From a virus, in the IMG/VR virus record IMGVR_UViG_3300030329_000805, positions 1 through 30,390 of that record: a stretch of DNA of 30,390 bases; one strand, 5' to 3'. The notes under the pieces are model-generated. The model did not search any database. It saw nothing but the letters and a program-made list of their open reading frames with translations, and was not told where the DNA came from. Of the stretch, positions 3 through 18,357 are shown one piece after another (within the stretch, counting starts at the first letter, position 1; the number at the start of each line of letters is the position of its first letter). Position numbers and translations under genes: made by a program.

Positions 3-2639
3 GCAACAGCAGCACAGCGTCCAGAGGCTAGAGATTATGCAACAGGCATTACTACAGATGAACGCTTTGAAGTAATTGAAGCTGAAGAACCTGAAGTAGC
101 TACGAGAATGGCTCAAACTATCTCTGAAAGAGAACAACAAGATTTAATGGATATAGTATCTAAAGAAGGGACAGACCTTGATGCTATACCTGAGTATCAA
201 TTAGCAGAACGTAGGACTGCACAGGTTGGTGAAGCTATTACTAAGATAGCTCAAGATTTAGGAAATGCTCCTTCTGTAGACTTACAAGGTAGACAAGCCA
301 TTACAGGAACTGCTCCTCAAGGGGATGCAAGTCAGATCGGTGGTATTCCTACTATGCAAGCGGCTAGTAGAGAGGCTATTACAGGACCAGAAAGATCAGC
401 AGCAGCAGAAGATATGATGGCAGTTGTAGCTAATCTTCCTGCTGAAGTAACTGCCGCTATCTCTGAAGATCCTGCTACATTAGAAGCTCAACTAGACACA
501 GGGTCAGATCCAGCAGTTGTAGCAGCCGTAGCTGCCTTACCAGAAGAAGCTTTAGTTTCTACACAAATGAGTAAGCTTCTAGAGGGTATGGAAGAAGGTC
601 AGACTCCTGCATGGGCAAGACCTGCTGTAGCACAGATAGAACAGATGATGGCTCAGAGAGGCATGTCAGCCTCTACAGTCGGTAGAGATGCTTTATTTAA
701 TGCCATTATACAGAGTGCTTTACCAATGGCTCAGAGCAATGCACAAGCTCTACAGCAAAGAGCACAGCAGAACTTATCCAATGAACAACAAGCTAACTTA
801 GCCTCTGCACAGAATACTATGCAGATTCGTATGCAGAATTTATCTAATAGACAAACGGCTGCGTCACAAACAGCTAATATGGCTCAACAGATTAAAGTTC
901 AGCAAGGTCAATTTAGACAAGAAGCTGCTATGACAGGTGAAGCTCAGACTCAACAGACTGAGATGGCTAACTTCCAAGCAGCACAGCAGAGAGCGCAACA
1001 GGAATCTGCTCAAAGGCAACAGACAGCTCTAGCTAACTTAGACGCTGGCTCTAGAATGGATTTAGCAAACCTAGAGGCTTTAAATAGAGCAGGTGCTGAA
1101 AATTTAAACGCAGAGCAACAGGCACGACTGACAACCTACAGAGCACAAGTAGATAGAACTATGCGTCAGGCAGAACTGACTCAGGATATGGAAAAAGCAA
1201 ATCTATCTACTGAATTACAGATGGAGCTGTCCAATTTAACAGAACAGAATGCAGCAGCCAGAGATACAATGACTGCTGAAAATCAAGAAAGGTTAACTAA
1301 TTTAAATACCTTAGTAGATTTTAAAAAGACCAATGCCACCTTAGCTCAACAAATGGATATGGCTAATATGAACGCTGAACAGCAAATGGAGTTAGCTATG
1401 CTGTCAGAAAGAGCGGCAACAGATGCTGCAAATATGACAGAAGCTAATAGATTTAGATTGCAGCGTCTTTCTGTTCATACAAAGATGATGTCTGAGAATA
1501 CAGAGCTACGACAACGTGCGGAGTTAGCTCAATTAAGTGCAGCAGAAAAAGTAGAATTGTCTAATTTAACAGCTCAAAATCAAGCAGATTCTGAAAGTAT
1601 GAGTGCTGAAAATGTAGCAGAGCTTCAAGTCTATGAAAAGAAAATGCAAGCAGGTCAAGTAAATGCTCAACTCGCACAGCAAATGGGATTAGCTAATCTT
1701 TCTAACGAACAATCTGCTGCTATGTTTAATGCTCAAATAGATGCCAATATGGATATGAGACAGTTCGATGCTAATCAGCAAGTACAGTTAGCTAATAGTC
1801 AATTTATGCAAACTATGACAGTTAAAGATATGGACAATAGACAGCAAGCAGCTATACAGAATGCAACAGCTCTGGCATCTATGGATATGCAGAATGCAGA
1901 TGCTCGTACTAAAGCTTCTATAGCGAATGCTCAGAATTTCTTAGCTATGGATACAGCCAATTTAAATAACAGACAACAAGCAACTGTTATGGATCAACAA
2001 ATGAGACAGCAAAGGATACTTTCTAATCAAGCGGCTGATAATGCTGCTAGGCAGTTTAACTCTACATCTATTAATCAAACAAACCAATTCAATGCAAACA
2101 TGGCTCAAAATATGGAGCAGTTTAATACTACTCAGAAAAACGCTATGGCTCAGTTTAATGCTACAGAAAAAAATAGAGCTAAAGCTATAAATGCTCAGAA
2201 TGAAACAGAAGTAAGTAAAGCTAATGCTCAGTTACTGACACAAACAAGACAGTTTAATGCTCAAGTAGATTTCCAAAGAGAACAATGGAACGCTGCAAAT
2301 GCTCAAGCAATTGAGCAATCTAATGTAGAGTGGAGACGTAGAGCAAATACAATAGATACAGCAGCTCAGAATGCTGTTAATCAGCAGAATGCACAGAATA
2401 CCTTTGCTATTACTCAACAGGCTCAATCTCAAATATGGCAAGAAGTAAGAGATCAAGCCACTAGAGAATATAGTAGAGAGCTTACACAAGATGAAAGAGC
2501 TATCTCTATGGCAAATACTGCTTTAGGTAGTGAGGCTTTTATGACACAGGATAAGTTTAAAGATCAAAGAAAAGAATTATTTGAGCTACTAAAAGATCTT
2601 ACAGGTATGGGCATTGGCTATACAGGCGAAAATCAATAA
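3..2639 (+). CDS. Giant Gln/Asn/Ala-rich hendecad-repeat virion protein (5' end outside window)
   Basis: The frame is open from the first complete codon at base 3, so the gene begins before the window; the first ATG at 108 is probably internal. From that Met it has 843 residues. Residues 1-208 are an Ala/Glu-rich, probably globular and helical region. Residues 209-802 are 54 consecutive 11-residue repeats with no insertion or deletion, very rich in Q, N, A and M and with no Cys or Pro. The last 41 residues are a mixed tail ending in a Gly-rich segment. Hendecad repeats usually form long, slightly right-handed coiled coils, so I infer an elongated fibrous virion protein. It is first in a run of structural genes, 17 bases before the next. 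It could be a fibre, an internal core rod or a scaffold; I recognise no named family. Confidence 0.85.
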   Translation, partial: ATAAQRPEARDYATGITTDERFEVIEAEEPEVATRMAQTISEREQQDLMDIVSKEGTDLDAIPEYQLAERRTAQVGEAITKIAQDLGNAPSVDLQGRQAITGTAPQGDASQIGGIPTMQAASREAITGPERSAAAEDMMAVVANLPAEVTAAISEDPATLEAQLDTGSDPAVVAAVAALPEEALVSTQMSKLLEGMEEGQTPAWARPAVAQIEQMMAQRGMSASTVGRDALFNAIIQSALPMAQSNAQALQQRAQQNLSNEQQANLASAQNTMQIRMQNLSNRQTAASQTANMAQQIKVQQGQFRQEAAMTGEAQTQQTEMANFQAAQQRAQQESAQRQQTALANLDAGSRMDLANLEALNRAGAENLNAEQQARLTTYRAQVDRTMRQAELTQDMEKANLSTELQMELSNLTEQNAAARDTMTAENQERLTNLNTLVDFKKTNATLAQQMDMANMNAEQQMELAMLSERAATDAANMTEANRFRLQRLSVHTKMMSENTELRQRAELAQLSAAEKVELSNLTAQNQADSESMSAENVAELQVYEKKMQAGQVNAQLAQQMGLANLSNEQSAAMFNAQIDANMDMRQFDANQQVQLANSQFMQTMTVKDMDNRQQAAIQNATALASMDMQNADARTKASIANAQNFLAMDTANLNNRQQATVMDQQMRQQRILSNQAADNAARQFNSTSINQTNQFNANMAQNMEQFNTTQKNAMAQFNATEKNRAKAINAQNETEVSKANAQLLTQTRQFNAQVDFQREQWNAANAQAIEQSNVEWRRRANTIDTAAQNAVNQQNAQNTFAITQQAQSQIWQEVRDQATREYSRELTQDERAISMANTALGSEAFMTQDKFKDQRKELFELLKDLTGMGIGYTGENQ
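732..2513 (+). repeat. 54 tandem 33-base units encoding perfect-register 11-residue repeats
   Basis: Cutting the protein into 11-residue blocks from residue 209 keeps the same pattern to residue 802 (54 x 11 = 594). Typical units are LANLSNEQSAA, LSNLTEQNAAA and QFNTTQKNAMA. Position 1 is usually L, M, I, V or Q, position 4 is often hydrophobic or Ala, and position 3 is Asn in 34 of the 54 units by my count. Units 41-48 mostly share QFN or a close variant at positions 1-3. The DNA units have diverged widely, so this is an old, protein-level repeat and not a recent DNA expansion. Confidence 0.88.
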
Positions 2640-2656
2640 ATAGGAGAATATAACTC

Positions 2657-3898
2657 ATGGGATTGTTAAGTAGTGCTTGGAAGAGTATAAAAGGTGGTTT
2701 TAAAAAGATTGGCAAGACTGTTAAAAAGGGCTTTAAAAAGTTTGGAAAGCTCATGGGTAAATTTGGAATCCTTGGTCAGCTTGCTATGTCTTTTATACTA
2801 CCAGGAATAGGAGGTATGTTTGTAAAGGGACTAGGGAGTATGCTAGGGGTTGGAAGTAATATTACATCTCTTAGTACTTTAGCGGGTAATCTTGCAGGAA
2901 GCACCAGCACTCTTGCAAAAGTAGCTGGACATGCTCTTGAGTACGGAAGAATAGCTGTGAATGCAGCTACTGCTCCTTTTAAGACTGTGACATCCCTTGT
3001 AACTAATTTTGGTAAAGGTGTTATTAATGGAATGAATAGAGTTTTACGTCCTGAATCTCTTGACATATTTCAAAGTTCTGGATGGTCAGGATTTACTTCG
3101 GATCTCAGTAAAATTGGAGAAGGTTTAAAAACAACTAGGTTTAATACAATTAAGGCTAATAAAATTAAACTGGATAAATTAATGGCAGAAGGTGCGGATA
3201 TTGGGAAAGGTTCTTATGCAATCGAAGAAGGTTACTTCGATACTAATGCGGCTGGAGAAACTATAGAAACACTCTCTACCGAAGCAATACCAGATGCTGA
3301 TCCTAAAAAGGTAGGTATTAGTAGTTTTGATGATAAAGGCTTACCTACTGATAATATAGAAGCCTTGAAGTATCCAACAGCAGAATACAAAACTACAGAA
3401 ACTTATAGAGGATCAAGGTTTGATGATGCATCAGGCTTTAGAGAAGATCTTTTCGACTTTAAAAATAAAGGGCTTGCTTCTGAAGCAGCGGATCAAGCTT
3501 CTGATTTTTCTCTTTTAAAGCCTAGTACTTGGCTTGATAAAGTAGGAGAAACAGCTTCAAGTATTAAAACTAATATAGTTGAAGAGATTCAAGCAACACC
3601 TGGTAAAATGGTAGGTAAAGCAGCAACTACAGCATTGTCGGATGCTGTTGGTTTGGGAGGTGCAGGTTCTTATAGATCTAGAGGTACAGATTTTGGCGCC
3701 AATACAAATATAGGTATAACCAGCCAGACTGCTCAAACAGAACAGGCTGTAGCTTTACAACGTTTATATGGTAATCCAGAGCCTACTAACTTGATTAACT
3801 CTTTTGCATCTTCAAATTACAACAATACTCCTGGCTGGATACCTAATGAGTCTTCTGCATATCATAATACACTACGTTCACTTACACGTACCGCATAA
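2657..3898 (+). CDS. Putative internal virion/ejection protein with cationic, membrane-active-looking N-terminus
   Basis: 413 residues. The first 35 residues are strongly basic and amphipathic, with a repeated K-x-G/K-x-x-K-K-x-F-K-K-x-G rhythm, and lead into a Gly-rich hydrophobic stretch at about 38-70 (ILGQLAMSFILPGIGG then FVKGLGSMLG). The remainder is soluble, mixed in charge and ends with Asn/Ser-rich sequence. Such an N-terminus fits a protein that inserts into or destabilises membranes. The gene lies just upstream of two large proteins that resemble T7 gp15 and gp16 in size and order, so a gp14-like role in DNA ejection is a reasonable inference, but no family motif was recognised. 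The ATG has AGGAG about 10 bases upstream. Confidence 0.7.
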   Translation: MGLLSSAWKSIKGGFKKIGKTVKKGFKKFGKLMGKFGILGQLAMSFILPGIGGMFVKGLGSMLGVGSNITSLSTLAGNLAGSTSTLAKVAGHALEYGRIAVNAATAPFKTVTSLVTNFGKGVINGMNRVLRPESLDIFQSSGWSGFTSDLSKIGEGLKTTRFNTIKANKIKLDKLMAEGADIGKGSYAIEEGYFDTNAAGETIETLSTEAIPDADPKKVGISSFDDKGLPTDNIEALKYPTAEYKTTETYRGSRFDDASGFREDLFDFKNKGLASEAADQASDFSLLKPSTWLDKVGETASSIKTNIVEEIQATPGKMVGKAATTALSDAVGLGGAGSYRSRGTDFGANTNIGITSQTAQTEQAVALQRLYGNPEPTNLINSFASSNYNNTPGWIPNESSAYHNTLRSLTRTA

Positions 3899-3910: not shown

Positions 3911-4435
3911 ATGGCTATAGATGTAGATAAAGCTTTCTTAGATGAAGCTACCACATTTGATGCTCCCATACCTGGAGAGTCTTTAACAGTAAGTCCTGAA
4001 GAGACTCATCCTTGGGATGGGCCTCCTGAGTATAATAAGAAGTCTGATGCTTTAGAGTACTTCTTTGATCTTTTTACTTCAGAAGAAACCTACGAAAAAC
4101 TAATGAACTCTTTAGAATCTAAAGTTCCTGTTATGGACTTAGTTAAAGTGTTTCTCTATCAATCCTTTCAAGAGGGGAAAATAAACCCCGATATGATGTT
4201 AATTCTAGCAGAGCCTTTGGCCTACATGATAGCCGCATTAGCAGAAAGAGCTAAAATTGATTTTGTTATACAAGATGATGATGACGATGAAGAAGATGAA
4301 GATACATCTATGTTTGGCCAGGCAGTGGGAACTATAGAGTCTCCAGAGGCAGGAGAGGAGTTTCCTGAAGAGGTAGCGCAGCAATTAGAATCTGAAGTGC
4401 CTGAACAAGGTAGATCACTACTAGGAGAACAGTAA
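3911..4435 (+). CDS. Small acidic virion-operon protein
   Basis: 174 residues, strongly acidic. Residues about 35-115 look folded and helical, with ALEYFFDLF and MMLILAEPLAYMIAALAERA segments. They are followed by a nearly pure Asp/Glu run at about 121-132 (DDDDDEEDED core) and a disordered Glu/Pro-rich tail. AGGA lies upstream of the ATG, and the stop TAA shares its last A with the ATG of the next gene, so translation is probably coupled. Acidic proteins in this position can be assembly chaperones or minor virion parts; I do not recognise the family. Confidence 0.65.
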   Translation: MAIDVDKAFLDEATTFDAPIPGESLTVSPEETHPWDGPPEYNKKSDALEYFFDLFTSEETYEKLMNSLESKVPVMDLVKVFLYQSFQEGKINPDMMLILAEPLAYMIAALAERAKIDFVIQDDDDDEEDEDTSMFGQAVGTIESPEAGEEFPEEVAQQLESEVPEQGRSLLGEQ

Positions 4436-6927
4436 TGGCTGATAATATTTGGGCGGGAATAGGTCAAGCTAGAGCAGATGATTACAGACGCTATAGACAA
4501 GAAGAGAAAAAAGACAGAAGGAGAGCTAGAAGGGATCAATTATTGTATGGAGCTGTTTTAGCTCCTATTGGTCAAGCTATAGGTCAGGGCGTATCTGATT
4601 TTTTAACTGAACCTTTTGAAAAAAAATATGAAGACTTTTTAGGAAGGGAAGGTAGAAGAGTAATAGATACGCATAGACAAATTACAAAAAATGCAAAGAT
4701 GCATCAAGACTATATAGATGATATGACTACAGCAGGACGGAGGCACTCTGGAGTTACTGGTCTTCAACATGCTATTAATCTTAGAAATTCTGAAAGTGCT
4801 AACTTTTTTGTAGAAAATTATGGAGAGGATTATTTATCTACACATGCAGATTTATGGGAAAAAACTTCAAAGGCAATAGAAGCGGGAGTAACAAAAGATT
4901 GGAATGAAATGCATTCCTATATAGATGGTGTGAAGAATAGACGTTCTGAAGAAGAAATTACTAAATACTTTAAAGAGAATAATCCTTTTCCTAAAAGTCT
5001 TCCTGCTAAGATGTGGAGATCTATTACTGGTATTTTTGATAAAGATAGACTGTCCCAAGAAGAGCAGAATAAGCAATATTTAAAAGAAGCAGCACCTTTT
5101 ATATATAGAATATTAAATGAAGAAAGTAAAGAGGGCGGCTCTTTTAGAGAAGAAATAGAAAGAATGCATACAGAGGCTCTTGAGCTTGGCCCTCAAACTA
5201 CAAAACAATCTTCAGAGTTTGTACAAAGCTTAATGAATGATGAGCAACGAGAAGAGTTTGAAAGGATAAAAGCACAAAAAATATCAGATAGAGATATAAG
5301 AAAAAGTATGCATTTATGGGATCAAGGTAAAATTGGCGAAGCTTTTGATGATTTGAATTTGACTCAAGATCATATTACAGCTATTAATTTAAATACAAGA
5401 GGTATGAATCCTGCACAGAAATACACATATATTAACAACATGTTTAAAGAAGATAGTGCTGCTAATAGAGACTATCAAGACTTTACAAATAATAAAATTA
5501 TTGAGGCATACAAACGTAATGATATCTTAGAAGTTCAAAACCTATCTAACACTGAACCTTTATCAGAATATCAGAATGAAGCCATTAGATGGGGTATTAG
5601 AAAGAATTATATTAATCAATCAAATATACTATCACTTCTAAAACCAGGAGGTATAGATACTACTAATAGTCCAGGTCGCGCTCTTTATGAGAATGTAAAT
5701 TCTTTATATATTGAGGAAAGAGCTGGTAAAAATTCAATTACTATGGATGCTGCTTCCTTTGCAACCGCAGCAGATCAGTTAAAATTAAATAATTATGAAT
5801 TATTAAATACCTATAAATCTACCTTACAAGCTAATATATCTGAAACGTTAATGGCTACTGCTCGTGATGATAGGGGCAATAGATATGAAATGGATGATGA
5901 CGGGATGGACGCTTTTTTAAGAGATCATGGCACGACAATATTTGAAGAAGTAAATAAAAGACTTTCTACCTCAATTAGTGTACTAATAAATAGCTCTAAG
6001 AATTTATCAAATTCTATTATAGGAGAAACTCCTGATCCTTATGATTCCATACCTGCTAGACAGGAGTTATTAGATTCTGCAATAGAGTGGTATACAACGG
6101 TACAGTTTGATCCTGAAACTGGAAAAATAAATAAGCTTACTGAAGAGACACCAGAGGATTTCAAAAAGTGGATGGCTGGTCAAGAATCTAAATCTCCTAG
6201 TAATGGCATTAATGTGACACAAGATGATGATGAAGATGAAGATGAAGATGAAGATAATCAGCTAGATGTAGGATCTGTACAAAGCGTAGAAAAAGCTTTT
6301 GATGTTTGGGATTTAACTGTAGAGACAAATAGTTTTAGAGAAAAATCAGGAGATGAGCAGTTTGAGGATTTTATAAAGATTCGTAATGATTTAAAAGAAG
6401 AGCATGGTATTGATTTAGCCTTTTATGGTGGGAGAGCACCCGAACGAAATCCATTCCAAATAAGTGGTCAAGATTCTGTCACTATAACAACAGAAAAGGA
6501 TAGTCTACTAGTAGGGCGTGAAACTGTTCCTCAGTATAGAGTTAATGTAAGTAAAAATTTATTGGCTAGTGATGTGGAGGTGTGGGAAAGAGAAGGCGCA
6601 CCTGAATTTACTTTAGAAGTCTTACCAGATACTCAAGCAGGGAAAAATATAAAAAATTATTTCAGGTATGAAGCTCTAAGAGCTAGAACTATTCTAGACA
6701 AACTAGATGAAATGGGTTACTCAAGAAAAGATAGAAAATTTACAAAAAAAGGAAGAGATGAAGGTGGTAGAAATATAACAACTGATTGGGGAGAACCTAG
6801 AGAGTTATATGATACCTTAGATGATATTTTAGATAATATAGATATACCAGGGATTGGTGATACACCAGAAGTTTTAAACTTTTTACTGAGAATAGATAGT
6901 AAGTACAACAAGAATATAAATCTATAG
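4435..6927 (+). CDS. Large internal virion protein candidate (T7 gp15-like by position)
   Basis: 830 residues, charged and mostly helical, with no signal peptide or clear membrane segment. The N-terminal 40 residues are Arg/Lys-rich (RRYRQEEKKDRRRARRD). There is an acidic tract at about 597-607 (DDDEDEDEDED) and the remainder lacks recognisable catalytic motifs. It starts on the last base of the preceding stop codon and ends 8 bases before the 1,895-residue gene. In T7-like phages an ejection protein of about 750 residues (gp15) sits directly before the large transglycosylase-bearing gp16, and size and order match that here. The assignment is by context only. Confidence 0.65.
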   Translation: MADNIWAGIGQARADDYRRYRQEEKKDRRRARRDQLLYGAVLAPIGQAIGQGVSDFLTEPFEKKYEDFLGREGRRVIDTHRQITKNAKMHQDYIDDMTTAGRRHSGVTGLQHAINLRNSESANFFVENYGEDYLSTHADLWEKTSKAIEAGVTKDWNEMHSYIDGVKNRRSEEEITKYFKENNPFPKSLPAKMWRSITGIFDKDRLSQEEQNKQYLKEAAPFIYRILNEESKEGGSFREEIERMHTEALELGPQTTKQSSEFVQSLMNDEQREEFERIKAQKISDRDIRKSMHLWDQGKIGEAFDDLNLTQDHITAINLNTRGMNPAQKYTYINNMFKEDSAANRDYQDFTNNKIIEAYKRNDILEVQNLSNTEPLSEYQNEAIRWGIRKNYINQSNILSLLKPGGIDTTNSPGRALYENVNSLYIEERAGKNSITMDAASFATAADQLKLNNYELLNTYKSTLQANISETLMATARDDRGNRYEMDDDGMDAFLRDHGTTIFEEVNKRLSTSISVLINSSKNLSNSIIGETPDPYDSIPARQELLDSAIEWYTTVQFDPETGKINKLTEETPEDFKKWMAGQESKSPSNGINVTQDDDEDEDEDEDNQLDVGSVQSVEKAFDVWDLTVETNSFREKSGDEQFEDFIKIRNDLKEEHGIDLAFYGGRAPERNPFQISGQDSVTITTEKDSLLVGRETVPQYRVNVSKNLLASDVEVWEREGAPEFTLEVLPDTQAGKNIKNYFRYEALRARTILDKLDEMGYSRKDRKFTKKGRDEGGRNITTDWGEPRELYDTLDDILDNIDIPGIGDTPEVLNFLLRIDSKYNKNINL

Positions 6928-6935
6928 GATATTTA

Positions 6936-9900
6936 ATGGCTTCTAATAAAAAAGATATTTGGTCTATAATAGCAACAGAGGTTAAGGCTCCAGAAGCTTC
7001 AACGTTTAGAAAGCTTGGTTATGGTTTTGAAAAGGCTACTTGGCTTGGTAGCGATTTAGCTAACATTCTAAATTATGATGAAGAAGAAAGAAAGAGGCTT
7101 GAAGCTGAAAGACTAAAAAAAATAGAAGAAGAGTATTCAGATCTTACTAAAGAAGAAAAAGAATCTGGATGGGCTACTGTAGGGGAAGTAGGGAGTCTTA
7201 TTTTAGACCCTACGGCTATACCTCTATATGCCCTTGGAGGCGTTGGAGCGGCTACTAAGGCGGCTAGTTTGGCCTCACGACTTGGGGCTACTTCTAAAGT
7301 GGCTATGAGAGCTTCCCGTGCCGCTCCTGTTGGGGCCGTTTCAGGTTTAGATTATATAGTAAGAGAAAAAGGAAGGGGAGAAGAAATAGACCCCGCTACT
7401 CTTAGTTTTTCTGTGGGTGCTGGAGCAGTATTAGGTTCTCTTTTTCCTGTTAAGACTCCTAAGTCCTTAGAAGAGGGAGCTGAAAAAGCAAAAGAAACTC
7501 TTAACGCTGTCTTCAATCCTAAAACTAAAAAATTAAAACCTTCTAAAGTTTCAGACACCCTCTCCTCTCCGCTAGAGAATGTAGAAGAACAAAATCTTGT
7601 AAATAAACTAACAGCAGAATTTAATGAAGAAGCTCCAGATTCTTATTCTAATGCTATAGATGTTTTTAATAATGGCTGGACTATTACTAAAGCTAATAAT
7701 ATTAAAAGAGCATATGATGAGCAGAAGAAACTAAGAAAGTCAAGGAAAGATAATAAAAATAGAATATCAGATTCTGAGTTTAAAAGATTAAAAGCATTAA
7801 AAGAGGAGTCAGATACATATAGAAAAGATGGGTTATACAAAAACATATCCTCTCAAGTAGAAACCACTTCTGACGATGCTATAAAACTTGCGGAGAAATA
7901 TGAAAGAGGAGGCATTCTAAATAAGAATACTATAGCTCAAGCTGTATATAGACCTATAATGGGAGCAGCGGGGGGTTTTGGTTTAGGAGCTACGCTAAAT
8001 ATATTTTCTGATGGAGAGGATGAATTTGACCCGCTTACATGGGCATTGATGGGATTGACTGCTGGAGCAATATCTAAAAAGATTGTCAATTCTAAATTCT
8101 CACAAGAAATTAAAGATGCTGGTGTAGAGGCGGCAGAAAGCATTCCAAGAAAAAGCTTGTGGGCTTCTGCTAATGTTTTCTTTTCAGGAAGTTCTTCAGC
8201 TAAAGGGTCTGCTTTTGGAGGAGATGTACAGACTTTTACTAATACCGTACTATCAAATGTAGGTACTGATTTGAAAGGTGCTCTTGGATCTTCTATTGAA
8301 GAGGCTTCTGATCTTGTTCAAACGGATATTACTAAATCTTGGTTAACTAATTTAAGTGATTTAGGTGTCCTTAATACTAAAAGGGCAGCAGAATTGAGAA
8401 GTGCTTCTTATATGAAAGCAGAAGGTTTTTGGGATGAGGCTGCTTTACAAGCAAAGGGTTTTTCTAATGAAGAGATATCTAATATTTCTAAGTTATCTGA
8501 TATAGCTTTAGATAATACCAGACGTATATCTGACGAAGTTGATAATGTAGGTATTCAATATACTAAATTAAAAGACTACAAGCTTCCTCAGATGCAAAAC
8601 ATTCCTCAAATAGTAAAAGAGCAAGACAAAGCTAGAGAGTTCTATGAGAGAGTTTGGCTTACAGAAAAAGAAATTAAAAAGGGTAAACCTTTAACTCAAA
8701 AAGAAATAGAAAGATCTACAGATCATATTCATGGATGGTTTGATGATTTGGTTGCTTTTGGCGGTGGTAGAAACAAAATGCAATCTGCTTTTGCAGTACC
8801 CCCTAAAGGAGGTGCAAAGTATTTAAAATCTCCTATGAGGCCACTGGCAGATCACTTTGAGAAAGAGCGTAAGTTTACCACATTTGAAGCTAGAGAAATG
8901 CTTGCCAATGAAGGGTACTTGATTACAGATGTAGATAGGTTAATGAAAGGCTACATTAATCAATCAGTGCCTATTATAGAGTTTGCTAGACGGTTAGGAG
9001 CTAAAGGTGAAGGTGTGGATGCTATGAAAAGGTCCATAAACTTAAAGTTTAATAAGGCTAAACAGCAAGCTAAAACAGGTAGGGAAAGAAATAAGTTAGC
9101 TGAATTACAGTCTAAGCATATAAAAACTGTTAATGAGGTTGTTGATAATTTCTTTGGGTTCACTCACGCCTCTTCTTATTTTGCTAATAATAAATTTGCT
9201 AACTCTGTTATGTCTGTTCTAGTTACAGGAGCTAATATTTCTTTTCTTCCTAAAGTAACTATTACAAGTTTAGGTGAACTTGCTCAACCTTTTGTAAACA
9301 GTAACTCCTTTAGCGCCTTAAAAGGTCTTGGTAGGACTTTAAATAAATCAAAAGATTTTTCACAGGAATCAGGCTTTGCTAATAAAGATGTTATGGAGCA
9401 TGAACTCAGACAGTATGTTCTAGATAGTGTGAATCCAGATTCAACAATTCAAAGATCTACTAGAAAACTAAATGAGTTCTTTTTCAGAAGAATTACATTT
9501 CTATCTCCTTATACAGCTTGGTCTAGAAAGCTAGGATATAACACTGGGGTAGAGGATACTTTTGACATAGCTAAAAAGATGGCAAAGAAAAAGACAACGG
9601 CTCTACAAGCCAGAGCTAATTACTATGGATTGAAATCTGATGATATAGATTACCTTAATAAGTTTAATAAAATTGAAGATGCTTTTGAAGATAACAGGGG
9701 CAGAAGATTATTGAACATAGGCGGGAATAGGGTATCAAACAGAGACATTATAATTCCTGGTCATGGAAATAGAAGAGCTATATCACAGTCAAGAGATCCG
9801 ATAGTAAAATCATTTAGCCAATTTCTTTCTTGGGCGCAAGCTAAGACTACACAAACAAACTCTCTGATTAGTCGGATGGAAGATGGAGATCATGCTCTAT

Positions 9901-12623
9901 TTGCTAAGATGGTTGGATCTTTGGTTCTTTATGATGGTGTGGTTACTTTCAGAGATTACCTAAATGATCCTACTGGAGAGTGGTTAGATAAAAGAGATGA
10001 AGACTCGTATAAAGAAGCATATAGCACACTTGAAAATGTAGGGAGATCTGTAAATCACAGCGGAAACTTTAGTCATTATCTGATAGATAAATTTGCAAGG
10101 CTGATGTCTTCTCATGGAGGTAAGCATCCCCTAGAAGAGCTTTGGCCTGTCCTTGGCTGGGCTACTGAAATGTTTGATGGGATATCTCCCATACCTGGGG
10201 ATCATCAAGGAAGTATCTGGAGAAACTTATATGATGATGATACCGAAGGGGCTTTAAAGCAATCGGTTAAGCGGATGCCTTTAGGAGATGAGATATTAGA
10301 TTTCTTAAAAGTTATGGATATGCCCTTAGAAGATAGGGGCAAATTAAAAAGTAAAAGTTTCATAAGCCCTATAACTTATAGTAAGGGTGGCGTAGTAGAA
10401 AATGTACCCCAAGTACCTAAAGAGCCTGATGAGCGCATTGACAAGCTCACAGGGAGGCCTTACAACGAACAAGCGGGTACAGCCTTTATAGATGAAGAAG
10501 ACCCTGTGAGGCGCTTAGGCTTCCTTGGAGGGGGTCTTGCAGAAAATCCGATAAGGCGGTTAGGGTTTGGTAAAGGTTCTTTAGCTAAGAAGAAAAGAAA
10601 GAAATACGTCATGGGTAGATTGGTTTCTGCCTATACCAGACTTAAAAGAGCTATAGACCCTGATGATTTAATGACTGAAAACCCAACTGCACTACCTATA
10701 GCTAGATTAGATCCAGAAACTACTGCAACTATGACGACTGATGAGGTTATGGAATTGCAGAAAAAGATGTGGGACGATGTTCCTGATGAGGCTGTTGAGG
10801 AAGCTCCAGTTGCAAAGGCTGATGAAGTTATTAACCCACAATTATCTCAAACTGACTATAATAAAACGTGGTCTAAGTTTGAAGATATAGAAGATGTTGA
10901 CGAGTGGCAGAGTACAGTTGGAAAATACGTGGGAGAGAACAGGGAGGTAGACCCCGTTATAAAAACTCCTGCTCTAGAAGAGTCTGCAAAAGACCTTATT
11001 GCTGGAAAGATAGATCGTGCTGAACATCTACAAAACGTGCAGAAGCACAAGCCAATTACGACATGGACAAGTATGCCAAAAGAGCCTTCAACTAAAACTC
11101 TTGTTTACTCTCTCAATTCTTTGCAAAGGAAGGATGGTAACTTTGTAATTGACAGTTCAGAAGCACAACTGTTTGATGTGCCTGTATCTGATCTTTCGGT
11201 AGGTGATAGTTTTAATGGAAGATTAGACATTCATGCGTATAAGAAGTTTGATTCATGGATTGTCGCAGGAACATCAAAAGATCATAAAGGAACAGGAACG
11301 CACTATGCCAAGGCTGTTCACTATGTAGGAAAGGGTGATGAGCCAGTAAAATTCGCGGCATCTCAGAAATATGGTGAGAGGATTGGGGTAGGGGAAAAGG
11401 AAAAGAAGGGGTACGCAACAGTTTCTGGATGGGTTAAAAGTTTAGACGCTGATAGCATCCGTAAAAAAGCAGAGAGCCTTCTTGATGATCCTGATTGGAT
11501 TCAGATAGGGTTTGATCCTAGACGCCAAGGCGCGTTCTACACCCGAAGCGGTGACAATATAGGTGCAGCGGTCAAAGAAGCTGAAGAAGTCATACAGGTT
11601 GGCCCATTAGTATTAGCAAAGAAAGCAAAGATTGATCCAGATTATACAGGCTATGTTCAAGGAGGCAAAGTCTACAAAGCCCTCCGTAAGCGTAAGGCAG
11701 AAGGTGGCTTAACAAATGAGGAAACGGATGAGGAAAAAGAGCAACGTGCTAGAACATTAGCATTTACTGAGAATGAAAGTCGCATTCATAGCCAGGCGGT
11801 TCGGGCATATAACGAGTTTAAAAAAACAGATCAGTATAAAGCTAATCCAAGTAGATATAGTCAGGGGCCAACTGTAAGAAAAATAAAACTTAATATACGA
11901 ATGCAAGAAAAGGCTAATAGGAATAAGAAGTCTCATGGCGGCTATACCACCGAATCAGGTACACTAGAACCAGAAGAGGCTATAAAGTTCACAATGGAGA
12001 CCTACTTTCCAGAAGACAAACCTCATGTAGTGGATTATCTAATCAATCAAGCACAGGTAGAGTCTAGATTAGGCAAAGATAAAAACACCTACAACATAAG
12101 AACATCTAGTTATGTAGATGGTTCTACTATGAGAGGTGGTTTTGGTATCCATCAAATAGATGAAATAGCTTTTGAGGATGTGAAGAACAGATTAATTGGA
12201 GGCGAAGGAGTTCCTTCTGGGATTAAAAAATATGGAGCAATGGTAAAAGAAGTCTTTGATAAAGAAAACTTAAAAGATATAGAGTATGAAGATCTTAGAG
12301 ATCCAGTAAACAATACAATCTTTTCCAGGCTTATACACAAGACCAAACCTGATCCTATACCTGAAGATATAGAAGGGCAAGCAAAGTATTGGACTGATAA
12401 TTATAATAAATCAGCCATTCCTAATATTGCAGAGGATAAGGAAATGTCTATACAGGAAGTAATGGATAGTATGGGATCAAATCCTGAGATACAAAAAGCT
12501 GTTGATGATTTTAGAGAAAAGCTAAATAAAAAATTTATAGAAAGGTCTAAAAGAGAAAGACGGAATAAAAACTCAGGCGGTAAAGTTATTAGCAGTTTGC
12601 ATAAAAGAATAGCTTCTTTATGA
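6936..12623 (+). CDS. Very large ejection/polyvalent virion protein with C-terminal lytic-transglycosylase-like domain
   Basis: 1,895 residues. The N-terminal part has Ala/Gly-rich hydrophobic segments at about 85-130 and 330-380 that could enter membranes. The middle, to about residue 1145, is helical. Residues about 1150-1665 form a separate module with two near copies of a P-V/I-RRLGF motif and the sequences IQIGFDPRRQGAFY and EVIQVGPLVLAKK, which I recall from large polyvalent proteins of marine phages. Residues about 1680-1830 resemble a soluble lytic transglycosylase: a candidate catalytic Glu1709 in AQVESRLG, then GGFGIHQI. This would cut peptidoglycan during DNA entry, as T7 gp16 does, although in gp16 the domain is N-terminal. 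The last residues (GGKVISSLHKR) echo an internal GGKVYKALRKR at about 1575. The start has AGGA six bases upstream. Confidence 0.75.
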   Translation: MASNKKDIWSIIATEVKAPEASTFRKLGYGFEKATWLGSDLANILNYDEEERKRLEAERLKKIEEEYSDLTKEEKESGWATVGEVGSLILDPTAIPLYALGGVGAATKAASLASRLGATSKVAMRASRAAPVGAVSGLDYIVREKGRGEEIDPATLSFSVGAGAVLGSLFPVKTPKSLEEGAEKAKETLNAVFNPKTKKLKPSKVSDTLSSPLENVEEQNLVNKLTAEFNEEAPDSYSNAIDVFNNGWTITKANNIKRAYDEQKKLRKSRKDNKNRISDSEFKRLKALKEESDTYRKDGLYKNISSQVETTSDDAIKLAEKYERGGILNKNTIAQAVYRPIMGAAGGFGLGATLNIFSDGEDEFDPLTWALMGLTAGAISKKIVNSKFSQEIKDAGVEAAESIPRKSLWASANVFFSGSSSAKGSAFGGDVQTFTNTVLSNVGTDLKGALGSSIEEASDLVQTDITKSWLTNLSDLGVLNTKRAAELRSASYMKAEGFWDEAALQAKGFSNEEISNISKLSDIALDNTRRISDEVDNVGIQYTKLKDYKLPQMQNIPQIVKEQDKAREFYERVWLTEKEIKKGKPLTQKEIERSTDHIHGWFDDLVAFGGGRNKMQSAFAVPPKGGAKYLKSPMRPLADHFEKERKFTTFEAREMLANEGYLITDVDRLMKGYINQSVPIIEFARRLGAKGEGVDAMKRSINLKFNKAKQQAKTGRERNKLAELQSKHIKTVNEVVDNFFGFTHASSYFANNKFANSVMSVLVTGANISFLPKVTITSLGELAQPFVNSNSFSALKGLGRTLNKSKDFSQESGFANKDVMEHELRQYVLDSVNPDSTIQRSTRKLNEFFFRRITFLSPYTAWSRKLGYNTGVEDTFDIAKKMAKKKTTALQARANYYGLKSDDIDYLNKFNKIEDAFEDNRGRRLLNIGGNRVSNRDIIIPGHGNRRAISQSRDPIVKSFSQFLSWAQAKTTQTNSLISRMEDGDHALFAKMVGSLVLYDGVVTFRDYLNDPTGEWLDKRDEDSYKEAYSTLENVGRSVNHSGNFSHYLIDKFARLMSSHGGKHPLEELWPVLGWATEMFDGISPIPGDHQGSIWRNLYDDDTEGALKQSVKRMPLGDEILDFLKVMDMPLEDRGKLKSKSFISPITYSKGGVVENVPQVPKEPDERIDKLTGRPYNEQAGTAFIDEEDPVRRLGFLGGGLAENPIRRLGFGKGSLAKKKRKKYVMGRLVSAYTRLKRAIDPDDLMTENPTALPIARLDPETTATMTTDEVMELQKKMWDDVPDEAVEEAPVAKADEVINPQLSQTDYNKTWSKFEDIEDVDEWQSTVGKYVGENREVDPVIKTPALEESAKDLIAGKIDRAEHLQNVQKHKPITTWTSMPKEPSTKTLVYSLNSLQRKDGNFVIDSSEAQLFDVPVSDLSVGDSFNGRLDIHAYKKFDSWIVAGTSKDHKGTGTHYAKAVHYVGKGDEPVKFAASQKYGERIGVGEKEKKGYATVSGWVKSLDADSIRKKAESLLDDPDWIQIGFDPRRQGAFYTRSGDNIGAAVKEAEEVIQVGPLVLAKKAKIDPDYTGYVQGGKVYKALRKRKAEGGLTNEETDEEKEQRARTLAFTENESRIHSQAVRAYNEFKKTDQYKANPSRYSQGPTVRKIKLNIRMQEKANRNKKSHGGYTTESGTLEPEEAIKFTMETYFPEDKPHVVDYLINQAQVESRLGKDKNTYNIRTSSYVDGSTMRGGFGIHQIDEIAFEDVKNRLIGGEGVPSGIKKYGAMVKEVFDKENLKDIEYEDLRDPVNNTIFSRLIHKTKPDPIPEDIEGQAKYWTDNYNKSAIPNIAEDKEMSIQEVMDSMGSNPEIQKAVDDFREKLNKKFIERSKRERRNKNSGGKVISSLHKRIASL

Positions 12624-14096: not shown

Positions 14097-14309
14097 TTAC
14101 CTAAATACTGCCAGCTCTCCTTCTAAGTGATCGTGAAGACCTTCTAGTTTTATAGAAGTCTCCTTCAAAATCTTTTGAATCAAGACAGAATCTTCAGGTT
14201 CTGTAAAAGCCTTAGTAACATCCTCTGTTGGTAAGTACTTGTACTCTGTCATCAGCAAACCTTTTGCATTGACATAGACCCTGAATGATATGATGTTCCC
14301 TTCCCTCAT
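14097..14309 (-). CDS. Small protein at the 3' end of the minus-strand operon
   Basis: 70 residues with an N-terminal beta-like part (NIISFRVYVNAKGLLMTEYKY) and a C-terminal helix. Its ATG overlaps the stop of the ribonucleotide reductase beta gene as ATGA, so it is translated with it. It ends one base from the last late gene. No recognised family; the nrdB link suggests, but does not show, a role in nucleotide metabolism. Confidence 0.6.
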   Translation of the reverse strand: MREGNIISFRVYVNAKGLLMTEYKYLPTEDVTKAFTEPEDSVLIQKILKETSIKLEGLHDHLEGELAVFR

Positions 14310-15268
14310 GTAAACTGAATCCCTTCTACATTACCTCTCAATCCTGCCTTCATATAAGCGGTTGCGCGACCTTCAAAGAAGTTCTGATGTTCTACTCCCA
14401 TTACACTGTCTAACCAGGGGAGAGGATTCTCATTGACATCGTAATTAGTCTTTAATCCTAGTTGAAGTAAGCGTCTGTCTGCAATGTACCGTATGTATTG
14501 CCGCATTTCTTTCTTAGTCAACCCTTCAATATCTCCAAGATCAAATACTAGATCTAAGAATCTATCTTCAAGGGCTACCATATCTCTACAGGCTTGGTAG
14601 ATTTCCTTTTTAAAATCATCAGTCCATAACTCAATGTTCTCCTGTATGAACTCCCTAAACAATTTAGTCATAGCTTCTACATGCAATGACTCATCTCTAA
14701 TGCTGTATGTAATTATCTGTCCCATACCTTTCATCTTTCCAAATCTAGGGAAGTTCAAGAGTATGACAAAGCTACTGAATAACTGTAGCCCCTCTGTAAA
14801 ACCACTATACACTGCCAAAGCTTTAGCAATGCTCTCCTTATTACTCGCAGTAACTTTAATGTTGTTGATGTAATCGTGCTTGTCTGACATGGCTTCAAAG
14901 TCTGCAAAGGCTTTGTACTCTGTCTCTGGCATACCTACTGTATCGAGTAGAAGAGAGTAGGCGTGTTGATGGATACCTTCCATGTTTGCAAAGCTACTCA
15001 TCATCATCCGTGCTTCAGGCATCTTGAAGATACGCATGTACTTATCAATATACCCTGACCCAACATCTACATCAGACTGTGTGAATAGTCTAAAGATCTG
15101 AGTCAGTAGGTTCTTTTCTACTTCATGTAATTCCTGCCAATCTTTCACATCATTGTGCAAGGGTACATCTTCTGGAAACCAATGCATTTGATTCTGCTGG
15201 ACGTAGTAATCAAACATCCAGGGAAACTCAAACGGTTTGTAAAAACTTCTTGTACTTAATAGACTCAT
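14306..15268 (-). CDS. nrdB: Class I ribonucleotide reductase, beta (radical) subunit
   Basis: 320 residues. The di-iron ligands align with E. coli NrdB: Asp66, Glu97, His100, Glu159, Glu193 and His196, with the family spacings (D to E 31, E to E 34, E-x-x-H pairs). Tyr104 lies seven residues after Glu97, where the radical tyrosine sits. It generates the tyrosyl radical that NrdA needs to make deoxynucleotides for phage DNA. Slightly shorter than E. coli NrdB (about 375). AAGG lies eight bases before the ATG. It follows an 85-base gap, the longest within this end of the operon, and is separated from nrdA by three small or unrelated genes. Confidence 0.95.
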   Translation of the reverse strand: MSLLSTRSFYKPFEFPWMFDYYVQQNQMHWFPEDVPLHNDVKDWQELHEVEKNLLTQIFRLFTQSDVDVGSGYIDKYMRIFKMPEARMMMSSFANMEGIHQHAYSLLLDTVGMPETEYKAFADFEAMSDKHDYINNIKVTASNKESIAKALAVYSGFTEGLQLFSSFVILLNFPRFGKMKGMGQIITYSIRDESLHVEAMTKLFREFIQENIELWTDDFKKEIYQACRDMVALEDRFLDLVFDLGDIEGLTKKEMRQYIRYIADRRLLQLGLKTNYDVNENPLPWLDSVMGVEHQNFFEGRATAYMKAGLRGNVEGIQFT

Positions 15269-15353
15269 AAATAATACCTTATGTTTACCCTATGCTATCG
15301 TATTACCCAATGTAACTATGTTCAATTCCAGACCATATAGAGCCATCTATGGG

Positions 15354-15581
15354 CTACTTATAGGCAGATTTTGCCCTAGTGTCTAGATCGTCATAAGTCA
15401 TATTATACTTTTTTAGCAGCTCTAATGGTAGCGATATAGCTATAGGTCTATGGGGATGTAAAGGACATTCACTAGCCTGACATATAGTGACTTGCTGCTT
15501 CCAAGAACCTTTCTCTTTTGGATCGTATATACACCACTTACACATAGCATTTATAGCTTGCGCTTTCGTTGTTTTTTTCAT
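15354..15581 (-). CDS. Small conserved-type phage Cys-rich protein
   Basis: 75 residues. The core is CKWCIYDP, then TICQASECPLHPHRP, giving Cys14, Cys17, Cys34 and Cys39 plus nearby His, a pattern fit for a zinc site. I recall similar short proteins in many phages, with no assigned function. The ATG overlaps the stop of the oxygenase-like gene (ATGA). It is followed by 85 bases without a gene before nrdB. Confidence 0.65.
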   Translation of the reverse strand: MKKTTKAQAINAMCKWCIYDPKEKGSWKQQVTICQASECPLHPHRPIAISLPLELLKKYNMTYDDLDTRAKSAYK

Positions 15582-16267
15582 TCTTCCCTATCCCAACAAT
15601 TTAAATTAGCAGCGACTGTTCTACGCTCACCTTCTCCAAAGAAGGGGTATACCATGTGCTGCATCCAACTTGGAAACATCAACAGTCTCCCTACCTTCGG
15701 CTGCATTGAGACTGACTGAGGTGGTCTCAGACGCTCTGTATTCATTATCTCGTTCCTGCCATAAGTAAAGGCTAAGAAGCCGTCACAGGCTCCTGAGTCG
15801 TCGTAGAGAGTGTAGTCTTTATTGTATGAGGAATCACCTAGTTTTCCTATCTGTTCAGGAACCTTTGTCCAGCAGGTAGTGCTGATCCCCATGAGTGTCT
15901 TAGTACCATGATCATGTACTGGATTGTAATCCCCTTCAAAGGAATGCACAGACCACAGCTCATCTATGTCTACATACTTAGGTTTCAACTTAGCGCCTGT
16001 CGTTTGAGAGAAGGTAGTAATATAATCTGCTCCCATCTGACAGATATAATGTCTGAATTCCTGAAGCTCTTCTACCTCGTGATCCATAGTAAGTTGCTCA
16101 CCTCTATGTATCTGTCCTACTAGTGTACCTGCATGAGACTTCCTAGACTGATCTTCAAGGAGATTGTCTAGGTAATCATTCAATGTAGTTACCATCTCTT
16201 CAGGTAATTGTGTTTCAAACATAGTTACAGCAGGAAGATGGTGTACCTGTACACGTTGATCTGACAT
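15578..16267 (-). CDS. 2OG-Fe(II) oxygenase-like protein
   Basis: 229 residues. The pattern fits the short phage-type 2-oxoglutarate/iron oxygenases: YNPVHDHGTKTLMGISTTCW (candidate iron ligands His118 and His120), then FPSWMQHMVYPF with the distal His204, and ERRTVAANL, where Arg215 or Arg216 could bind 2-oxoglutarate. Such enzymes hydroxylate proteins, nucleotides or small molecules; the substrate here is unknown. It lies between nrdA and nrdB and overlaps both neighbours by 1-4 bases, so it is expressed with ribonucleotide reduction. Confidence 0.72.
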   Translation of the reverse strand: MSDQRVQVHHLPAVTMFETQLPEEMVTTLNDYLDNLLEDQSRKSHAGTLVGQIHRGEQLTMDHEVEELQEFRHYICQMGADYITTFSQTTGAKLKPKYVDIDELWSVHSFEGDYNPVHDHGTKTLMGISTTCWTKVPEQIGKLGDSSYNKDYTLYDDSGACDGFLAFTYGRNEIMNTERLRPPQSVSMQPKVGRLLMFPSWMQHMVYPFFGEGERRTVAANLNCWDREE

Positions 16268-16458
16268 CAGGGCATAAGCTCTTCGACTACATCTAACTTC
16301 TCTTTAGCCTCTGCAATAGCAGAGATCATAGCGTCCATAGATCCTACAATGTCGGGGTGCTCTGCTACGCCCACGCTGTTATCTACATAGTTCTTTAAGT
16401 TGGTAGTAGCAACCATAATTTCTGATTCGTATCTTAATTTCAATGCTTCTAAATACAT
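16267..16458 (-). CDS. Small helical protein between nrdA and the oxygenase-like gene
   Basis: 63 residues, beginning MYLEALKLRYESEIMVATT and containing NSVGVAEHPDIVGSMDAMI. It resembles short proteins I recall next to RNR or polymerase genes in marine phages, with no known role. Starts 15 bases after the nrdA stop and shares one base with the next start. Confidence 0.6.
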   Translation of the reverse strand: MYLEALKLRYESEIMVATTNLKNYVDNSVGVAEHPDIVGSMDAMISAIAEAKEKLDVVEELMP

Positions 16459-16473
16459 AATATCCTCTGTTAA

Positions 16474-18357
16474 TTAACCTTCACAAGCCAAGCAATCCAT
16501 ATCCTCTAAATTGATTCTAGGGATCTTGACGTTCACATTCTCCGCACTTCTAGCAGCATCTGATCTCAGGTAGTACAAGGACTTCAGAGTTCTTACTCCT
16601 GCCCAATGTACATCATTGACATACTGTAAATACTCATCGTGTACTTCTTGAGGCTCTGTAGCCTTTGGAGGGACAAAGAAAACATTCACACTTTGACTCT
16701 GGCAGATATATTCCTGGCGATGGTGAGCATGTTCAATAATCCATATCTGATTAATTTCAGGGGCTGTCTTAAACACCTCTTTCTCTTCTTCAGAAAGGAA
16801 ATCAAGATGTTGAACAGAACCCGCATTAGCTGAGATATCCTTCCAAACCTTTTCAGTGTTCTTTCTTTTCTTCTCCAGCAATCTTTCCAAACTTTTATTT
16901 CTAACTTCATAAGACCCCGTCAGCGTTTTGTGTGTGAAAACGTTAGCACGTATAGGCTCAATCGAAGGAGACGTTCCATTACATATAATACTGCTGCTGG
17001 CATTAGGAGCAATAGCCAAAAGATGAGCATTACGCCTACCGCTGCCGACCATATCAGGTGCTTCACCCCTATCGCTGCCCAATCGTAAAGAAGCTTCAAC
17101 GGCTTTTGATTTGATGTGGGAGAAAGCTCTGTGATTGAAGGAGCTGGCCCACATACTTTCAAAAGGTATGTTGTTATTCTGTAAAAAAGAATGAAAACCC
17201 ATCGCGCCCAAACCGATTGAGCGTTCTCTATATGCACTATAAGCGGCTTTTCTGTAAGCACGTTTTCCCTCCTTTATATAATTTCTAAAGCGTTCAGGTC
17301 CTGCTCTGTAGGTTCCCAGATCTGAAGTATCTACTGCATTCTCTATAAAATGCTCTAGAATGTTATCTAGCATGGTGACTAAATCATCTATAAATAGCTC
17401 ATCATCTTTCCACTCATCAAACTTTTCTAGGTTGACAGAAGAAAGGCAGCACACCGCAGTGCGTTCTTCATTGGTAGGCAAGGTGATTTCTGAACATAAG
17501 TTACTTTGTTTTATTTCTAACCCTAATTCCTTCTGCTCTTTCGGAAGATGCTCATTACATGTATCCAGGTTAATCAGATACGGCTCTCCAGTTTCTGCCC
17601 TGGTATGGATCAAAGACCACCAGAGATCTCTAGCAGAGACAGTCTTCACAGCCTCTTTTGTTTTCGGATCTATCAGTCTCCAATCTTTATCTTCTTTGAC
17701 AGCCTCTAGGAATTCATTGGTTAGGCTGACTGCATTGTGTAAGTTTAAACTCTTACGATTTAAATCGCCTCCCGTCGTCTTACGCATGGCAATGAACTCT
17801 TCAATCTCTGGATGAGATATGTCCATGTATGCTGCGTAAGATCCTCTTCTAGTAGTGCCTTGATTAAAGGCCAACATGAGACTGTCTACGACATGCATAA
17901 AAGGGATAGAGCCAGTAGACTCACTGCCGTTAGAAGTAGCAACACCATTACTCCTAACGCTACCCCAATACCCACCGATACCCCCACCTGCGCTTGCCAA
18001 CCAGACGTTCTCATCGTAATGAGCAGATAGCCCGTACCGACTGTCAGGCACAAAATTAAGAAAACAGCTAATAGGGAGGCCACGGCTGGTTCCCCCGTTA
18101 GAAAGTATAGGAGTACTATACATAAACCAGCAAGCACTAGCGTAGTTATAAAGTCGTTGTGCAAGATCGTAGTCAGTAGATCCTTTATATGTTGCCCCAA
18201 AAATTGAAGCCCTAGCAAAAGCGTGTTGAGCATGTGTTTCATTATCCCTTTCCCAAAAGTACCTGTCCTTCAAAGTGTCTAAAGAGAACTGATCTAACTG
18301 TTCATCTTTAGAAACATCAATGTTTATCCCAAGATATTCTTGCATCTTTAATGTCAT
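16474..18357 (-). CDS. nrdA: Class I ribonucleotide reductase, alpha (catalytic) subunit
   Basis: 627 residues. Reduces ribonucleoside diphosphates to deoxy forms together with NrdB. The active-site residues are visible: redox cysteines Cys98 (PISCFLN) and Cys303 (AVCCLSS), the thiyl cysteine Cys288 with Asn286 and Glu290 (SNLCSEI), the tyrosine pair in LKSLYYLR, and the C-terminal shuttle CxxC (Cys622, Cys625). It is shorter than E. coli NrdA (about 760): the N-terminal ATP-cone is missing, so overall dATP inhibition is probably absent, which suits a phage. The start at 18357 overlaps a 52-residue basic gene by 41 bases; Met5 is an alternative. Confidence 0.95.
   Translation of the reverse strand: MTLKMQEYLGINIDVSKDEQLDQFSLDTLKDRYFWERDNETHAQHAFARASIFGATYKGSTDYDLAQRLYNYASACWFMYSTPILSNGGTSRGLPISCFLNFVPDSRYGLSAHYDENVWLASAGGGIGGYWGSVRSNGVATSNGSESTGSIPFMHVVDSLMLAFNQGTTRRGSYAAYMDISHPEIEEFIAMRKTTGGDLNRKSLNLHNAVSLTNEFLEAVKEDKDWRLIDPKTKEAVKTVSARDLWWSLIHTRAETGEPYLINLDTCNEHLPKEQKELGLEIKQSNLCSEITLPTNEERTAVCCLSSVNLEKFDEWKDDELFIDDLVTMLDNILEHFIENAVDTSDLGTYRAGPERFRNYIKEGKRAYRKAAYSAYRERSIGLGAMGFHSFLQNNNIPFESMWASSFNHRAFSHIKSKAVEASLRLGSDRGEAPDMVGSGRRNAHLLAIAPNASSSIICNGTSPSIEPIRANVFTHKTLTGSYEVRNKSLERLLEKKRKNTEKVWKDISANAGSVQHLDFLSEEEKEVFKTAPEINQIWIIEHAHHRQEYICQSQSVNVFFVPPKATEPQEVHDEYLQYVNDVHWAGVRTLKSLYYLRSDAARSAENVNVKIPRINLEDMDCLACEG

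Follow-up and report, generated by a model that had tools for sequence, protein, structure and literature searches.

A hendecad rod of quantised length and two-faced surface in a widespread family of short-tailed phage proteins

The first gene of the window, a 30,390-nucleotide stretch of viral DNA (IMG/VR record IMGVR_UViG_3300030329_000805, positions 1 to 30,390), encodes a long rod of 11-residue repeats (hendecads) held in one register, and in near and distant homologues from short-tailed phages this rod lengthens or shortens by whole hendecads, with one single-residue exception. Its helical surface is two-faced, carrying hydrophobic residues on nearly opposite sides, and its gene opens a conserved gene row (Table 1). 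We suggest that the rod helices may pack side by side into a multi-helix assembly, possibly one that lines the path of ejected DNA.

Table 1. Positions of the rod-protein gene, its parts and its neighbours in the window.
Feature	Position	Strand	Remarks
Rod-protein gene, 3' part (HMO-2011 gp25 family)	3..2639	+	Frame open from base 3; homologous open reading frames reach hundreds of codons further upstream
N-anchor QIEQMMAQRGMSASTVGRDALFNAIIQSALPMAQSNAQ, leading into the rod	633..746	+	Invariant columns (A2/A4); present in distant phage relatives
Hendecad rod	732..2513	+	54 eleven-residue blocks, of which 34 have Asn at position 3
Length-variable rod middle, four 55-residue units A–D (20 hendecads)	1062..1721	+	Extra copies in relatives, mostly in 110-residue steps; flanking units constant
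41-residue C-terminal tail	2514..2636	+	Varies between relatives; Gly-rich and hydrophobic in several distant ones
413-aa protein	2657..3898	+	Basic amphipathic start KSIKGGFKKIGKTVKKGFKKFGK; hydrophobic segment at residues 38–56
174-aa protein	3911..4435	+	Most widely conserved neighbour; downstream of the rod gene in 62 searched loci, including HMO-2011 gp24
830-aa protein	4435..6927	+	T7 gp15/P22 gp20 position in the row; two weak matches, hardly conserved
1,895-aa protein	6936..12623	+	T7 gp16/P22 gp16 position; phrog_3108 (PHROG of unknown function) at residues 1695–1826

In the open reading frame at 108–2639, residues 209–802 divide into 54 blocks of 11 residues without an insertion or deletion. 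Relative to shuffled sequences, autocorrelation of the rod at lag 11 was high for Asn (0.34, z = 8.3), for hydrophobicity class (0.24, z = 5.8) and for Kyte–Doolittle hydropathy (0.20, z = 4.9), and it was at least as high at lags 22, 33 and 44. Position 3 was Asn in 34 of the 54 blocks against a background of 11.4% (binomial p ~3e-19, uncorrected for choosing among 11 positions), and the same Asn row was found in eight other phages (13–26 Asn per 17–31 blocks). According to the family profile, one constant register runs along the rod, with scores that are clearly positive over about blocks 1–52 and fade in the final two or three. These results confirm the hendecads, the Asn row and the 11-residue periodicity that an earlier, sequence-only reading of the window had described; its 54 exact blocks stand as regards the lack of indels, and with the fading profile the run is better given as about 52–54 uninterrupted hendecads. 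Its estimate of a rod near 90 nm is also correct as arithmetic for one straight helix (594 × 0.15 nm = 89 nm). Above the hendecad lies a supra-repeat of five hendecads, or 55 residues (z = 3.7 relative to shuffles of the block order), with a weaker one of 110 residues (z = 2.4). A 597-residue stretch of the rod contains no Pro and 6 Gly, and an AlphaFold monomer of the 843-aa fragment was helical, at low confidence (mean pLDDT 48.8).

Judging from homologous frames, the first protein of the window is the C-terminal fragment of a large protein of which the rod is the central part, and the ATG at 108 is probably internal to the gene. Stop-to-stop frames in two close relatives span 1,267 (L001) and 1,259 (L176) codons, and homologous frames overall span some 1,240–1,800 codons or more. 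The earlier reading had noted that its block count closed with the total length of the protein (802 + 41 = 843); because the frame runs open off the contig end and its homologues extend much further upstream, both that total and the closing count are meaningless. In loci L027, L024 and L038, the N-terminal regions of the rod protein reach up to 2,610 residues and lack a Pfam match.

By sequence comparison, the rod protein is a member of the family of HMO-2011 gp25 (phage1322_25, ADW08438.1), with homology over the rod and C-cap (tblastn, 39.7% identity at residues 546–797, E = 2e-31). HMO-2011 gp25 and its relatives have in common with the window the N-anchor, RG(L/M)xxS(T/S), before the rod, a single hendecad register running from there to the C-cap, Asn at position 3 and the gene row, whereas their rods are 18–35 hendecads shorter. 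The family is conserved in phages of Pelagibacter, Puniceispirillum, Roseobacter, Rhizobium, Vibrio, Aeromonas and Pseudoalteromonas, including CRP, HTVC, CHOED, MQM1 and phiM6 phages, and its members are annotated as hypothetical protein nearly throughout. Conservation is highest at the rod end and on the C-terminal side, and the N-terminus is variable. Searches of Pfam, PHROG and the PDB with the rod, its neighbours and their profiles returned nothing useful; PDB matches at E 0.06–1 were set aside as chance or helical-composition similarity. The rod family is thus undescribed in the libraries searched, yet widespread. Virion proteomics of HMO-2011 was sought in the literature and was not found. 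In several distant members the rod runs into a hydrophobic, Gly-rich tail (GSAIGGLIGTLGSAFISS in HMO-2011), and the composition of these tails, together with the basic amphipathic and hydrophobic start of the protein encoded by the next gene, hints at membrane contact.

We measured rod lengths, relative to the window rod, as distances between anchors placed outside the rod. These distances were used instead of free-gap pairwise alignments, which cut 110-residue inserts into pieces of 97 and 13 residues and introduced compensating 2/2 gaps close to the C-end. Among 31 different rods of the window's group having both anchors, the length differences were 0, +33, +110, +220, +330, +440 or +550 residues, in four MAG-derived loci they were 0, −110, −110 and −220, and in three Pelagibacter phages −220. 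The rods of more distant podophages were shorter than that of the window, by 308 residues in HMO-2011, CRP-1, CRP-13 and CRP-345, 319 in CRP-9, 352 in Slicky01 and MQM1, 363 in CHOED and 374 in HTVC033P. The C-anchor scored weakly for HMO-2011, CRP-1 and CRP-345, and a second anchor pair reaching into the rod gave the same distances with good scores. All these near and distant differences are exact multiples of 11. Anchors were weak for CRP-3 and RHph_N3_19, and the outside-rod anchor was not significant for phiM6 and ctYwJ313. Rod length was identical in all 75 of 75 HMO-2011-type homologues, whose N-terminal regions came in 53 lengths, and in 21 of 22 HTVC-type homologues. The remaining one (L160) has one residue inserted close to the C-end, reading NSNLAIEQSN in place of NSNLVEQSN; this is the only register exception found, and a sequencing error or a skip residue could account for it. 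N-terminal regions in the window's group had lengths scattered modulo 11, and small indels were lacking in the rods of more than 120 homologues, beside regions full of them. The sequence-only reading had predicted homologue lengths differing by multiples of 11, and near and distant podophages follow this rule, L160 apart, more strictly than it had asked. We consider it unusual for an indel record to show selection on coiled-coil register so cleanly.

Growth of the rod is confined to its middle units, except in one locus (L002, +33), and the first two and last four 55-residue units are constant in number. The steps of +110 duplicate a ten-hendecad module; in L040, where the rod has 43% self-identity at lag 220, the extra length consists of further copies of units A–D. 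The rod middles of L040, L033 and relatives show hierarchical repeats of 11, 55, 110 and 220 residues. When the variable units were excluded from tree building, rod length had to change at least 11 times, and the rod lengths on that tree were all multiples of 110 except in L002. Since unequal exchange between repeated units can yield multiples of 110, this quantum alone is no proof of selection; better evidence that register is under selection comes from the +33 case, from the families that are 28, 29, 32, 33 and 34 blocks shorter and from the scarcity of small indels. An interpretation of 110 residues as a half turn of a superhelix was dropped, the value being wholly set by the assumed number of residues per turn. 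The resulting series of rods, from 20 to 104 hendecads, provides natural material for learning what rod length does.

We projected the hendecads onto a wheel for an 11/3 helix and compared its harmonics with shuffles within blocks. Hydrophobic residues fell into two nearly opposite stripes, at positions 2, 6 and 10 (98–164 deg) and at positions 4 and 1 (295–0 deg). In the window rod, the first hydrophobic harmonic was 0.21 and the second 1.28 (shuffles: 0.20 ± 0.11 and 0.20 ± 0.10, respectively), and overall they were 0.1–0.25 and 1.2–1.4. The peaks lay at about 30 deg for Gln, about 230 deg for charge and about 197–200 deg for Asn, with the Gln side roughly opposite the charged side, and these angles were nearly constant across near and the most distant relatives. 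A two- or three-stranded coiled coil requires one hydrophobic face. Two such faces therefore imply packing on both sides, as in a sheet, a tube or a multi-layer bundle, and the thin two- or three-stranded fibre suggested by the earlier reading does not agree with this pattern. For the Asn row, that reading had offered either a polar core or a regular lateral contact. The Asn row is a feature of the whole family, and position 3 lies at the edge of one hydrophobic stripe, adjoining the charged face; this placement argues against the polar core and makes the regular lateral contact the likelier of the two. The rod thereby makes a sharp structural prediction, namely two-faced helices forming a wide assembly.

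The rod gene is the first in a row that we write as rod/(413)/174/830/1895, whose order is kept even where the sequences have diverged, and which in HMO-2011 closes the late module, ahead of the opposed replication genes. In some distant relatives, the 413-aa gene is replaced by a gene of 65–75 aa. For the 174-aa protein, AlphaFold gave a confident helical core at residues 44–113; a Foldseek search with this model found no PDB relative and one viral protein (A0A346HW51), and no PHROG relative was found. Among relatives whose rods and 174-aa proteins are 30–70% identical, the 830-aa protein is almost unrecognisable, and it may make up the host-specific portion of the row. The 1,895-aa protein is fast-changing except for a strongly conserved motif at residues ~1150–1190, near KGGEVxxVPNAPxEPDERIDKxTGxPYNxQAGxAFxDxEDP. 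In its position and in the rising sizes of the neighbours, the row resembles P22 gp7-20-16 and T7 genes 13–16. The likeness to the T7 and P22 ejection proteins is one of position and size, and comparison of the rod and its neighbours with them gave no sequence or profile homology. By gene position, the rod protein is grouped with internal or ejected proteins.

The closest structural parallel that we considered is the pilot protein H of phiX174, which forms a ten-helix DNA tube with a lumen lined by N, Q and R (PMC7354561); 18 of its 23 inward residues are N, Q or R. We took the H sequence from the same source and drew its wheel from three hendecads and a transition block, and in these four blocks the second hydrophobic harmonic (0.97) exceeded the first (0.63), with amide residues at 331 deg and charge at 147 deg. 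The rod and H thus have in common an 11/3 helix, two-faced hydrophobicity and an amide side opposite the charged side. They differ in scale and setting: the coiled-coil domain of H (PDB 4JPP) has three hendecads plus heptads against 54 hendecads in the window, and its 121-residue, ten-helix tube belongs to an ssDNA microvirus, whereas for the rod a tube is a proposal. Homology between the two was not detected, as neither phmmer nor profile searches with the rod matched the PDB. In a scan with 110-residue windows, H exceeded its shuffled 95% level at lag 11, T7 gp14-16 and P22 gp7, gp20 and gp16 gave no lag-11 signal, and the P22 needle peaked at lag 7. HMO-2011 gp25, whose register is seen in the profile and harmonic tests, did not reach its shuffled 95% level for hydrophobicity here; the scan therefore lacks sensitivity.

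With these observations, we propose, as a plausible reading to which we would grant slightly less than an even chance, that the protein is a late structural component whose two-faced hendecad helices form a multi-helix assembly serving as a conduit for ejected DNA beyond the short tail. Each chain would be a continuous or nearly continuous 11/3 alpha-helix, and its two stripes would let it pack against a neighbour on either side. Many parallel chains would then form a closed sheet (a tube) or a sleeve rather than a two- or three-stranded fibre, although the step from two-sided packing to a tube is one that we infer. Gln-rich surfaces would line the lumen and charged ones the exterior, and the Asn row, on the outer margin of one packing stripe, would provide a regular lateral contact. 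Present in the virion, the protein would leave the head on ejection and build, jointly with its neighbours, a passage for DNA much as phiX174 H does. Side-by-side packing with Gln inward and charge outward is the best supported arrangement, judged from the wheel, and gene position and analogy best support an internal protein that would leave the head and line the DNA path. Length limits the simplest version of this proposal: the longest rods, of 594 to 1,144 residues, would measure 89 to 172 nm if straight, far more than the Gram-negative envelope, and a simple tube spanning the periplasm therefore fails to explain the long forms. A bolder version, in which abundant marine podophages have an alpha-helical conduit on the phiX174 H principle, with an amide-lined lumen and a length that serves as an evolvable ruler, extended by whole modules of ten hendecads over a range of about 20 to over 100, we hold to be somewhat unlikely.

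The rod might instead act like a tape measure, setting the length of an internal core, an extension of the portal barrel or a tail part formed during infection, with ten-hendecad copies added to lengthen it. Tape measure proteins of some long-tailed phages do contain a variable number of 11-residue repeats (Belcaid et al. 2011, PMC3271669), changed by duplication as in the rod, and the 110-residue quanta, the repeated changes on the tree and their restriction to one place in the rod would suit a ruler. Those tape measures, however, have a W/F-marked, one-faced helix, as in Staphylococcus phage 69 (hydrophobic first harmonic 2.9, second 0.43), whereas the rod is Asn-marked, two-faced and carried by short-tailed phages. 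The gene setting also differs from that of tape measures, which follow the tail tube and frameshifted chaperone genes of a long-tailed phage, whereas here the gene lies in a late row and the relatives with published descriptions are short-tailed. In MQM1, the helix length does not equal the tail length: the tail measures 9.2 nm (PMC10410586), far less than the rod of ~245 residues (~37 nm), so the rod is no ruler of the visible tail. We regard a ruler function as unlikely. An internal rod or spool, that is, an antiparallel or wound bundle in the capsid that organises DNA or forms an inner core and never becomes a conduit, appears to us decidedly unlikely. A straight rod of 89 nm would exceed the heads of relatives (~70 nm; PMC8528129, PMC10410586), which obliges the chain either to exit the head or to be folded or wound; multi-layer bundles are likewise compatible with two-faced helices, and the 55-residue supra-repeat could be a hairpin unit. 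Against folding stand the near lack of Pro and Gly and a register unbroken at the 55-residue boundaries, with no sign of a turn.

The first proposal of the sequence-only reading was a long fibre, which would here be an external fibre or needle in the form of a long coiled-coil appendage. Its length as one helix and its low Pro and Gly content would fit, hendecad coiled coils are known and P22 has a coiled-coil needle, but that needle is heptad-based and the rod is two-faced. Moreover, the conserved rod end and C-terminal side and the variable N-terminus are the reverse of the usual tail fibre, which is attached to the virion by its N-terminus, and relatives have separate annotated tail-fibre genes. 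Among the structural readings we rank a thin external fibre last, and we give it little credence. The 11-residue periodicity and the Asn row at that spacing also recall the amphipathic surface helices of apolipoproteins, LEA proteins and type I antifreeze proteins, which bind lipid, protect against desiccation or bind ice. The 11-mer helices of these proteins are expected to be one-faced, and the rod is two-faced; the family also occurs in phages of soil and fish bacteria, and the rod gene lies within a late structural module. We consider a surface helix of this kind very improbable, and retain the conduit or sleeve as our preferred reading.

Two further features of the window were recorded. 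Acidic low-complexity repeats (GATGAAGAT...) occur at 4264–4302 in the 174-aa gene and at 6204–6263 in the 830-aa gene. Positions 14306–18357 encode the two subunits of ribonucleotide reductase together with a 2OG-Fe(II) oxygenase; HMO-2011 and phiM6 differ in having a B12-dependent reductase.
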